Of a DNA stretch of 64,000 nt, positions 14,388-22,314 are shown piece by piece. Every line of letters begins with the position of its first letter. Position 1 is the stretch's first letter. The stretch covers positions 602,626 to 666,625 of the forward strand of contig NZ_SJPW01000007.1 of assembly GCF_007860125.1 (NCBI RefSeq), in the 5' to 3' direction. This DNA comes from Rubripirellula tenax (GTDB lineage: Bacteria > Planctomycetota > Planctomycetia > Pirellulales > Pirellulaceae). Below the pieces are notes generated by a model. It was not told where the DNA came from. It saw only the letters and a program-made list of their open reading frames with translations, and ran no database searches. The position numbers and the translations under genes are program-made.

Positions 14388-14724
14388 TGTGTTTCAATCG
14401 TTGAACGAAATCATTGAACTTGAGGACTGGGCCGTGCCAGCCACGATGCGATCAGCCAGCCCATAACCGTATCCGCGACCACCGATCCTCGCTTCATCCG
14501 TATCGATCGACACGCGTGAGATCGTAGGCATTCGTCCAGTGAGCGTCCATTTGCCGCTTTAAGCATCGTGCGGAACGGCGATTCCGCGACGTTCGTTCTG
14601 ATTTTCGTGAAACCGCGATCGATTCGACATTAGCGATTAGGCAAAAAGATTTAATTCTGCCGGTTGTGACGGCCGATGAATGGATTGTCTATCCACGTCT
14701 GAGACTGCCATAAGGCTACCGACT
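14388..14724. other. Intergenic region, divergent promoters expected
   Basis: A 337-bp gap between the divergent SDR and Cys-rich lipoprotein genes. It must hold both promoters. I see no hairpin, no repeat and no clear -35/-10 pair that I would defend. The stretch near 14620-14660 is the most AT-rich. Confidence 0.5.
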
Positions 14725-15336
14725 ATGTGTTTTGAGAATCGAATTGTCGCCGCACTTGCTTGTTCGGCTTTGCTTTGGGTCACCGGCTGCGTCGGTCCGA
14801 TGGCGTGCGGCCCCAACGGCGCCTGTGGACCGTTTGCCGTCAATTCGTGCGGTGGATGCGGGGACTGCGAAGGTTGCGGAGAGCTTTACATTGATCCATG
14901 GATCAACGAACCAGCCAACTGTGTCGATCCGTGCGATAAGTGCGGAAATCACAACGGGCAATCGTGTGGTAAGTGTCGGTCGGTCTTTGAGGGCTTTTCG
15001 AACCTTTGGGGTTACCGATGCGATGACGGGTGCGATTCGTGCGGCAGCGCCAGTTGCGGTGGTGGATGTTGTCCGCCTGTCAGCGGTGGTGCTTTGGGCG
15101 GTGGTCCCGGCGATTGCGATGGCGGTTGTGGAAGCTGTGATTCAGGCTGTGGCGGCTGCGATTCGTGTGGCGGCGGACAAGAACCGATGTACATCAGTGG
15201 CCAGGACGTGATGCCGCCCTCGGAGTACGTCGAAAGTTCACCGTCGCGAGCTTACGCACCCAGCCGAACCCGTCAAATCTTCAAAGCTCGCGGCAGCAAC
15301 GTTGCGACGGGCAGCCGATCGGGTACCGAATACTGA
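14725..15336 (+). CDS. Cysteine-rich lipoprotein
   Basis: A 203-residue protein from the ATG at 14725, with a short hydrophobic leader (IVAALACSALLWVTGC) that ends in a lipobox (C22). The mature part has about 23 cysteines, most within the next 125 residues, in CxxC and GGCD-type glycine-rich runs such as CGGCGDCEGC. The last 50 residues have none and are polar with many serines and arginines. No known domain. Cysteine-rich exported proteins are common in Pirellulaceae, whose envelope is partly held by disulfides, so a cell-surface structural role is plausible but unproven. Confidence 0.75.
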   Translation: MCFENRIVAALACSALLWVTGCVGPMACGPNGACGPFAVNSCGGCGDCEGCGELYIDPWINEPANCVDPCDKCGNHNGQSCGKCRSVFEGFSNLWGYRCDDGCDSCGSASCGGGCCPPVSGGALGGGPGDCDGGCGSCDSGCGGCDSCGGGQEPMYISGQDVMPPSEYVESSPSRAYAPSRTRQIFKARGSNVATGSRSGTEY

Positions 15337-19471: not shown

Positions 19472-19665
19472 TTCGCGGCGGGACAAAAGAGGCGGTTCGG
19501 GCTTCTTAAGCTGTTTTTCCCGGCCGCCAGTCGTCCGCCTCTTGACGATATTTGTCGAAATAACCTATTTTTCTCTTTGGCGACGAATTTTGGCACGCGT
19601 GTTTTTTTCGGTTCGATCCGATAGACTTTCGCATTCCAAACAAACTTTGCCAATCTCGTTCGATG

Positions 19666-19739
19666 GCCAGCGTAGCTTCAATTGGCAGAGCAACGCATTC
19701 GTAATGCGTAGGTTGTGGGTTCAAATCCCACCGCTGGCT
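19666..19739 (+). tRNA. tRNA-Thr (anticodon CGT)
   Basis: A complete cloverleaf can be drawn. The acceptor arms GCCAGCG (19666-19672) and CGCTGGC (19732-19738) pair fully. The anticodon stem ACGCA/TGCGT encloses TTCGTAA with anticodon CGT at 19700-19702, and the T arm is GTGGG-TTCAAAT-CCCAC. The anticodon CGU reads ACG (threonine). No CCA is encoded. Confidence 0.93.
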
Positions 19740-19831
19740 TTTTTCGACCGCCGAACTGTGAAGTTCGGCGCCGAGATGCTCCCCATCAATTGCTTTGTAC
19801 GCCCCCCTCAATGGGCAGGAGACTTGTGTCG

Positions 19832-21163
19832 ATGAGTGAAACCGATCTCGACGTTCTCGACCTGAAAGATATGGTTCTGGCCAACAACTCGTTCGGCCCC
19901 GCCGACGTGGGCAAGATCCGCAAGGCGATCTCGGAAAACTATGGCCATTTCGGCGAACTTCGTGACGCCGTCAACGAAATGGACGACGACGATTCGCTTA
20001 GCCCTGCCGGGATGACGAAGAAAGGCGTTTGCGAATTTCTTCTGGGCCGGTTCCGTGAATCGCTGTCAACATTGCAGTCCGCTGATGGCGGCGCGATGGC
20101 GCTGTTCTATCAAGCTCGGTGCCAATTCGAGCTTGGGAAGTTTGAAGACGCAGTTGCGGCTTACGAGAAGTCTCAAACATCGGGCTACAACGACGACCAA
20201 TGCAAAATTGGTATCGCCGAGTGTCATCGCTATGCCGGGCGCGTCGACGACGCTTTGGCGATTTTGGACAATATTTTCGGACCAGCCGAGCAAACGGCCG
20301 ACTACATGTACCAACGGGCCGCTACCGTTGCGGCAGTGGGCGGTCGCATGGAAGAAGCGTTGGCGCTTTACCAACGTGCGGTCAACACCGACGAAAATCA
20401 CGCCGGCGCCCTGTTCGGCCTGGCGCTCGAAAACGACCGCATGGGCAACGACAAGGAAAGCTTGGCGTTGTACGAGCGTGCTGCGAAGACGTTCCCAACC
20501 GGAATCGGCGCTCTGATCAACTTGGGTTTGATCTATGAAGACAACAACAAGTTCGACAAGGCCCAGCTTTGCTACAAGCGAATTCTTGATTGTTACCCCG
20601 ACCATCCGCAAGCACAGCTTTACATGAAGGATGCTGCCGCCACCGGCAACATGCTTTATGACGAAGAAGCCCAACGTCGCAACGATCGCCTGGCACAGAT
20701 TCTGAACATGCCGGTGACGAACTTTGAATTGAGCGTTCGAAGCCGAAACTGCTTGCAGAAAATGGGCATCGACACGATCGGCGATTTGACGCGCACGAGC
20801 GAAGCGGAACTGCTGAGCAGCAAGAACTTCGGTGAAACCAGCCTGTTCGAAATTCGCGAGATGTTGACCAGCAAGGGTTTGAGCCTTGGTCAATTCGCGC
20901 ATGAGAAAAAGAGTAACGATCCGCCGTTGGACACCAGCCACATGTCGGCTGATGAGCAGGCGTTGTTGGATCGCCCGATTTCAGATTTGAATTTGTCGGT
21001 TCGTGCTCGCAAGTGCATGGCGAGACTGCAACTAAACTCGATCGGCGAGCTGATCCGAAAGACGGGCGACGATATGTTGGAGTGCAAGAACTTCGGCGTG
21101 ACTAGCTTGAATGAAGTTCGCGAAAAGCTAACCGACCTCGGTTTGAAGATGCGTGGGGACTGA
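19832..21163 (+). CDS. TPR protein with two RNA polymerase alpha-CTD modules
   Basis: A 443-residue cytoplasmic protein. Start at 19832, with AGGAG 10 bases upstream. Residues about 45-285 are a run of roughly six TPR helical hairpins (for example [20 protein letters not shown] and [20 protein letters not shown]). Residues about 294-350 closely follow the C-terminal domain of the RNA polymerase alpha subunit: [10 protein letters not shown], then [26 protein letters not shown] and KGLSLG. R303 and N306 match the DNA-contacting Arg and Asn of E. coli alpha. A second, more diverged copy (about 382-438) keeps the Arg (R391) but has Lys for the Asn. No alpha N-terminal domain is present. It could bind UP-element-like DNA or RNA polymerase partners. 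The role is unknown. tgt follows after 14 bp. Confidence 0.88.
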
Positions 21164-21177
21164 TCGCCGAACTTTTC

Positions 21178-22314
21178 ATGAGCCAGTTTCAATTTGAACT
21201 CTCACACCGCGACGCGTCCACTTCGGCGCGCCGCGGTGTTTTTTTGACGCCTCACGGCCCGGTCCAAACACCGGGCTTCATGCCCGTTGGTACCCAGGGA
21301 ACGGTCAAAGGCGTCACGATTGATCAGGTCAAGGAAACGGGCGCCCACATGATCTTGGGCAACACGTACCACTTAGCCTTGCGCCCCGGTCATGAAACCG
21401 TGCGTCGGCTCGGCGGACTTCATGGAATGTCCCGTTGGGAAGGTCCGATTCTGACCGATAGCGGCGGCTTCCAAATCTTTTCTCTCGGGGCCATCAACCA
21501 AGTCACCGAAGAAGCGGCCACGTTCCGCAGTCACATCGACGGTGCCGAAGTTCGTTTGACCCCCGAGCATTCAATTGAGATCCAAGAATCGCTCGGCAGT
21601 GATGTCGCCATGGTGCTTGATCACGTCGTTGCGCTGCCTGCCGAACCCGGCGTGGTCGAAGACGCGATGGCGCGATCGATCCGCTGGGCCAAACGTTGTC
21701 TGGAAGCGGCAACCCGGGATGACCAAGCCAAGTTTGCGATCGTTCAGGGCGGGCTAGACGTCGAGCTAAGAATTCAGTGTGCCCGCGAACTGTCATCGAT
21801 GAACTTCGATGGCTACGCAGTTGGTGGCTTGAGCGTCGGTGAAGCGCCATCGGAAATGTATCGCATCACAGCGGCAACGTGTCCGGAACTTCCTGAGGAC
21901 AAGCCGAGATACTTGATGGGTGTCGGAACGCCGATCGACCTGATCGAAAGCGTTGCCCGTGGTATCGATTTGTTCGATTGTGTGATGCCGACGCGTAACG
22001 GACGGAACGGATTGGCGTTCACCGACGAAGGAAAGTTGAAACTTCGAAACGCGATCCACAAAGAAGACACTCGTCCGATCGAAGCCCATTGCCCGTGCTT
22101 GGCGTGCCGCCACAGTCGCGGTTACCTCCGGCACCTCTTCGTCGCTGGTGAGATGTTGGGACCGATTCTGTTGTCGATTCACAACTTGACGTACTACCAG
22201 CGCGTCATGCAGGGTGCCCGCGACGCCATCGAGCAGAATCGTTTCGCCGACTATGCCCGCGAAAAGAAAGCAGGATGGGGAATCGCGGACGTGGCGGAGC
22301 AACCGGGCGCGTAA
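21178..22314 (+). CDS. tgt: tRNA-guanine transglycosylase
   Basis: A 378-residue TIM-barrel enzyme, standard length. It swaps guanine-34 for preQ1 in tRNAs with GUN anticodons, on the way to queuosine. Family markers are [25 protein letters not shown], the catalytic [24 protein letters not shown] and GGLSVGE, and the catalytic-Asp region [13 protein letters not shown]. The zinc site is CPCLAC with a later His ([11 protein letters not shown]). It probably shares a transcript with the TPR/alpha-CTD gene (14 bp apart). No other queuosine genes are near. Confidence 0.97.

Follow-up and report, generated by a model that had tools for sequence, protein, structure and literature searches.

In the textbook view, sigma factors, activators and the C-terminal domains (αCTDs) of the alpha subunit of RNA polymerase (RpoA) together read bacterial promoters; the N-terminal domain of alpha dimerises and holds beta and beta'. 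We take the DNA-binding residues of the αCTD to be R265, N268, N294, G296, S299 and E302 (E. coli numbering), and we assume that the acidic pair 259/261 faces region 4 of sigma in E. coli, the contact of the 261 determinant presumably being R603 of sigma70. An αCTD detached from the rest of alpha is represented by NF005841, a 95-position "hypothetical protein" model that we interpret as one αCTD, and an αCTD-like domain is carried by the PglW kinases of BREX, presumably, judging by its name, a defence system. Spx regulators control transcription through the αCTD (PMC2801614).

The gene described here comes from Rubripirellula tenax (Planctomycetota) and lies in a stretch of 64,000 nucleotides of contig NZ_SJPW01000007.1, called the window below. 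Its product, P0001, joins a TPR scaffold to two αCTD modules. Both kinds of domain are known, but a conserved family that would re-use the αCTD in trans is, as far as we found, uncharacterised in the openly licensed literature: no paper describing a TPR/double αCTD fusion was among the matches listed (a weak absence), and for UP elements in planctomycetes the openly licensed full texts yielded a single paper, on an unrelated subject.

Gene, domain architecture and fold

P0001 comprises 443 amino acids plus a stop codon. The gene, its parts and its nearest features are as follows (window coordinates, strand, feature, basis):

19665..19740, +, tRNA-Thr(CGT), upstream of the P0001 gene (ARAGORN)
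19817..19821, +, AGGAG, likely ribosome binding site, 10 nt before the ATG at 19832 (read by eye)
19832..21163, +, TPR / double αCTD ORF encoding P0001 (ORF, Pfam; similar-length homologues in relatives)
19832..20002, +, N-terminal helical region, residues 1-57 (AlphaFold2 model, conservation)
20003..20647, +, TPR region, residues 58-272, six helix pairs plus capping helix (Pfam, model, conservation)
20648..20698, +, hinge and helix between TPR region and module 1, residues 273-289 (model, conservation)
20699..20893, +, αCTD module 1, residues 290-354 (profile, sequence, fold)
20894..20962, +, variable linker from module 1 to module 2 (model, alignment)
20963..21154, +, αCTD module 2, residues 378-441, R391 kept, K394 replacing N268 (profile, sequence)
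21178..22314, +, tgt, queuine tRNA-ribosyltransferase (PF01702, E 1.4e-153; synteny)

The gene is well bounded. Its frame can also be read as a protein of 482 amino acids from an in-frame GTG at 19715; this start was rejected because it lies inside the tRNA-Thr gene. Scans for promoters and terminators returned a single promoter-like match, upstream of the tRNA (mean of 0.9 in shuffled sequences), and a single terminator-like match (mean of 3.3 in shuffles), neither of which was taken as evidence.

P0001 was modelled with AlphaFold2 on an alignment of 40 family members (mean pLDDT 83.9, pTM 0.56). The model begins with a pair of helices, continues with six TPR helix pairs (residues 58-254) and a capping helix, and ends, after a hinge at residues 274-276 (pLDDT below 50), in two small helical modules joined by a low-confidence linker. 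With a pTM of 0.56 the placement of the domains relative to each other is tentative. The six helix pairs agree well with the "about six TPRs" of the original prediction, which had been made from the sequence alone; several TPR families score above their Pfam cut-off in P0001, and the top Foldseek matches of the model are TPR proteins. Residues 1-57 are poorly conserved across the phylum (the commonest residue averages 22% in 35 sequences), and the better conserved part of the TPR region consists of the repeats at 151-262 plus the next helix. The linker between the modules measures 23 amino acids in P0001 and 12-47 in the 26 genomes compared. Also borne out is the lack of an alpha N-terminal domain: no family of this domain matches P0001 in Pfam at E ≤ 1 (among 25 of 28 matches listed), and the NCBIfam rpoA models, all below cut-off, have their best stretch at the C-terminus, from about position 220-246 on.

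PF03118 (RNA_pol_A_CTD) matches P0001 in two stretches with an E value of 1.6e-42 and 143.5 bits (cut-off 23.8), and the two modules, scored singly in the genome, reach 76.3 and 77.9 bits. Our own αCTD model, the seed of which includes both modules of P0001 and which calls a module above 5 bits, gives them 117 and 114 bits, and the weakest module in 25 phylum-wide relatives (loci L089-L113) still scores 22.5 bits. Chance similarity was rejected as an explanation, since family sequences that had been reversed or shuffled, 546 in all, scored 6.7 bits at best. Sequence searches against solved chains paired residues 279-355 with the αCTD of E. coli (1coo, E 7e-14) and residues 370-443 with that of B. 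subtilis (3gfk, E 6e-12). The C-terminal 164 residues were in addition modelled alone (pLDDT 84.8) and compared by Foldseek, and the model superposes on isolated αCTD chains at about 0.7-1.1 Å, the matches not being assigned to either module. They include the Caulobacter αCTD on AT-rich DNA (9zum, 0.7-0.8 Å over 64-65 columns, 51-52% identity), the E. coli αCTD with CAP and DNA (3n4m and 1lb2, 1.0-1.1 Å) and the E. coli αCTD with sigma region 4 and UP DNA (3n97, 1.0 Å). At E ≤ 10 there are 284 matches, and the 50 listed are all described as RNA polymerase or αCTD. The original prediction had called both modules αCTD-like, had proposed a structure prediction of this region and had named generic helix-hairpin-helix domains as the reading that would cut the link to alpha. 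The generic reading was rejected, with PF03118 far above its cut-off and RNA polymerase or αCTD throughout the listed Foldseek matches; the fold is that of the αCTD, the sequences are αCTDs proper, and the link to alpha survives.

Conservation of the modules and spread of the family

In module 1, residues R303, N306, C307, N332, G334, S337 and E340 correspond to E. coli R265, N268, C269, N294, G296, S299 and E302 (numbering verified against rpoA of MG1655). All six DNA-face residues are thus present in module 1 of P0001, among them the DNA-contacting Arg and Asn (R303 and N306) that had been read from the sequence as intact. Module 2 keeps an arginine (R391) at the position of R265 and has a lysine (K394) at that of N268, a replacement that the original prediction had not mentioned.

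For a comparison of conservation, 26 genomes were used, each of which supplied both modules and its RpoA αCTD; one module 2 row (64 residues) was dropped, leaving 25. Pairs of module 1 sequences are on average 62% identical, pairs of RpoA αCTDs 52% and pairs of module 2 sequences 45%. Column by column, the entropy of module 1 lies below that of RpoA at 47 of the 65 positions and above it at 16 (Wilcoxon p 4.8e-4); module 2 shows the opposite balance, with 26 positions below and 38 above (p 0.036). Module 1 is therefore more conserved in these 26 genomes than the αCTD of the same cells' own RpoA. All six DNA-face residues (S or T being accepted at 299) are kept in 23/26 module 1 sequences, 13/26 RpoA sequences and 0/25 module 2 sequences, and an acid stands at both 259 and 261 in 23/26, 10/26 and 6/25, respectively. 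Module 2, which is very divergent in some lineages, fails the six-residue set in 25/25 rows chiefly through the loss of N268, replaced by K or R in 22/25.

R265, N294, G296 and E302 are invariant across 108 module 1 sequences (near-copies included), which also have a signature of their own, consisting of F260, R267, M273 and E/D297. Position 273 is hydrophobic in both modules, with M273 in 105/108 module 1 and L273 in 105/107 module 2 sequences (near-copies included). Most module 1 sequences have T298 together with E/D297 in place of the K-K of E. coli; planctomycete RpoA has T298 as well, but mostly K297. Net charge averages about +0.2 in module 1 and +2.2 in module 2. Since module 1 carries so little net charge its affinity for DNA may be weak, and T298 and E297 would likewise speak against strong DNA binding. 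One might picture P0001 as a hub that makes protein contacts only, to RNA polymerase or to regulators, with neither module touching DNA, a view to which the loss of N268 from module 2, the low charge of module 1 and the conserved hydrophobic M273 and L273 all lend something. The invariance of R265, N294, G296 and E302 in module 1 speaks against it, and we consider it very improbable.

The family is found nearly throughout the sample of the phylum. A protein search of 294 genomes drawn from Planctomycetota gave matches to P0001 at E ≤ 1e-30 in 277. The raw tally at E ≤ 1e-3 (293/294) was not accepted as a measure of universality, since at this threshold generic TPR or RpoA matches are included and make it too high. 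Among genomes of 90% completeness or more and no more than 5% contamination, 153/155 match at E ≤ 1e-30; the remaining two are G143, with both modules on a contig-edge fragment, and G031, with a 73-aa fragment at a contig end. The 17 genomes with matches weaker than E 1e-30 were re-examined with PF03118, together with G091 (E 1.4e-32). Some PF03118 match exists in 16 of these 18, and two modules in one frame solely in G143, where the frame is cut by the contig end; all but G031 and G143 (16/18) are less than 90% complete. G091, an incomplete genome and one of the 277, has a single module in a 113-aa frame, and for this reason the E value alone does not prove the presence of both modules. Of 28 genomes picked for their spread over families, 26 do have both PF03118 stretches in a single frame, as well as a separate, ordinary RpoA with one PF03118 stretch; the two exceptions are G031 (one fragment) and G123 (59% complete, none). 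Two modules score above 5 bits in 108 of 109 family sequences, a set that contains near-copies (at least five genomes twice) and excludes L031, cut at a contig end; the exception is the G031 fragment, which is RpoA-like. A genome scan with patterns from close relatives returned 54 loci, all in Planctomycetota. The P0001 family is close to being a core gene of the phylum. The search of all planctomycete genomes for the fusion that had originally been suggested was carried out on this sample of the phylum, nearly all members of which have it. On plasmids, both query modules fell on stretches of at most 273 bases, i.e., one αCTD, in the 20 of 81 matches listed; the matched gene is named RNA polymerase subunit alpha in records L147 and L149, and L148 has no annotated gene there. 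A viral scan found no relative of P0001.

In a tree of 79 modules and 65 columns, the 26 module 1 rows all share one branch (99/97), and a second branch (99/88) unites the 26 RpoA αCTDs with that of E. coli. Module 2 forms one group only weakly (72% of bootstrap trees), and the inner order of the αCTD tree is not resolved because there are few columns. The position of module 1 apart from the RpoA αCTDs would fit an old duplicate that has been kept separately, and both duplication and fusion probably predate the spread of the phylum.

Such retention bears on the possibility that the free αCTD pair acts as a decoy, occupying UP-like DNA or soaking up activators of the RpoA αCTD and thereby dampening transcription, with the TPRs sensing a signal or setting the location of the decoy. 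Module 1 closely copies αCTD surfaces, no attached alpha N-terminal domain was found, and a competitor would be expected to have just this form, mimicry without the body of the subunit. However, near-universal retention in the sample and a conservation above that of RpoA's own domain fit a positive core function better, and the signature residues of module 1 would be needless for pure mimicry. We therefore regard a competitor as unlikely.

Genomic surroundings and a possible role in transcription

The neighbours of the P0001 gene are tgt and a cyclophilin gene, not a ribosomal-protein operon; the true RpoA of this genome is encoded on a different contig next to an L17-like ORF (L17 by eye). 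The tgt gene begins 14 bases past the stop codon of P0001 and lies 3' of the P0001 homologue in 49 of 54 close loci, two of the five misses ending within 72 bases. In 16 of 26 phylum-wide loci, one or more members of a ruvA, ruvB, queH, spoIID, tgt, yajC, secDF run follow downstream on the same strand; one of these loci (L103) has the complete run, and 10 of the 26 have no gene of it by tblastn with few reference genes, the method by which neighbours were found. Calling neighbours as the longest ORF had missed the target in 8/32 loci, apparently because antisense frames were longer. Of the genes in the run tgt alone was confirmed by Pfam, the others being named by eye. A tRNA-Thr(CGT) gene lies near the P0001 homologue in 17/34 loci examined with ARAGORN (out of more than 80), three times on the opposite strand. 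Elsewhere in the window, a 218-aa ORF (14680-15336, +) is very rich in Cys and Gly and has a signal-like stretch at its N-terminus.

This neighbourhood indicates housekeeping without pointing to a process. It might be taken to mean that the αCTDs have been put to another use than starting transcription and simply bind DNA or RNA in recombination, in repair or in tRNA and translation functions, while proteins dock on the TPRs; the position of the gene upstream of the ruvA-to-secDF genes in part of the phylum would suit this, as would the αCTD-like domains of PglW kinases. Since the run is a common housekeeping context in many bacteria, though, sharing it says little about function, and the sigma-facing acids 259/261, so widely kept in module 1, are needless for pure DNA binding. 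We find such a use outside initiation rather doubtful.

We favour, with about even confidence, a reading in which the detached αCTD pair on its TPR scaffold is a core transcription cofactor of planctomycetes that acts positively and in trans at promoters. In the manner of a DNA-binding αCTD, module 1 would hold on to A/T-rich DNA in the vicinity of promoters through the minor groove, and its acidic 259/261 surface would be placed to touch sigma region 4 as does alpha's own CTD. Module 2, more basic and with N268 lost, may add to this a contact of its own with DNA or protein, either weaker or of a changed kind. A partner, which could be RNA polymerase itself, a sigma factor or an activator, would be bound by the TPR superhelix and in this way brought to promoters or stabilised there. 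P0001 may thus recruit the αCTD to promoters or mimic it, as the original prediction had proposed, and we infer the positive sign of its effect. An arginine matching R603 of sigma70 is present in three of four RpoD-like sigma factors read from this genome, which has five RpoD-like matches above 228 bits, all of them short of the curated RpoD cut-off of 354 bits:

C8:227314, RpoD-like sigma match (profile score)
C2:332752, RpoD-like sigma match (profile score)
C1:1112292, RpoD-like sigma match (profile score)
C1:1289985, RpoD-like sigma match (profile score)
C8:429675, RpoD-like sigma match (profile score)

Against a transcription cofactor stands the fact that the downstream neighbours ruvA, spoIID and tgt are not transcription genes. 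A bolder and clearly more tentative form of the idea would make the αCTD pair a detached general transcription factor that takes over part of the job of the RNA polymerase αCTD at UP-like sites, the TPRs selecting the sigma factor or activator. A bridging factor of this kind would, to our knowledge, be unlike the known bacterial activators and sigma factors. If this were true, part of basal promoter recognition would have moved to a separate factor in planctomycetes, and promoter choice in these bacteria, one of which has several RpoD-like sigmas, would become a testable question. Genetic tools exist for Planctopirus limnophila (PMC10632474, PMC11958385), and the first of these papers reports the four core polymerase subunits of this species to be essential.

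The genome of R. tenax contains four PF03118 stretches, two in P0001, one in the 331-aa RpoA and one in an ORF of about 133 amino acids. The modules of P0001 resemble the αCTD of RpoA in fold and size, and module 1 also in its DNA-face and 259/261 residues; P0001 differs from RpoA in its tandem αCTDs, TPR scaffold and gene context and in having no detected alpha N-terminal domain. The small ORF belongs to a third αCTD family of about 133-135 amino acids, seen in this genome and two relatives:

L002:1339-1740, +, single-αCTD small ORF (R. tenax, C6)
L142:5044-5451, -, single-αCTD small ORF
L141:4533-4934, -, single-αCTD small ORF

These ORFs have stretches such as VRTTNCLE and NFGEKTL in common, and in the tree the R. 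tenax protein falls with the RpoA αCTDs on a long, unsure branch. Like NF005841/PRK07758 these Pirellulales proteins share with P0001 an αCTD without alpha N-terminal domain, but both have one module and no TPR, and P0001 is not a member of NF005841 (43.6 bits, cut-off 115). The PglW kinases of BREX resemble P0001 in bearing an αCTD-like domain on a large unrelated protein. They differ in their kinase and NERD domains, their one weaker αCTD (45 bits) and the adjoining methylase-like ORF; P0001 scores 27.6 bits against NF033442 (BREX PglW, cut-off 990) and has no kinase or NERD domain in Pfam (among 25 of 28 matches listed). Two PglW-like large kinase genes were encountered, and beside each lies an ORF of methylase type, similar to PglX by eye:

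L143:4482-8738, -, PglW-like large kinase (NERD, kinase and PF03118 by Pfam)
L144:4152-8714, -, PglW-like large kinase (PF03118, 41.8 bits; rest by eye)

Spx-type regulators (1z3e, 3gfk), finally, have in common with the role favoured here a control of transcription by way of the αCTD, but Spx binds an αCTD, whereas P0001 itself carries αCTDs.
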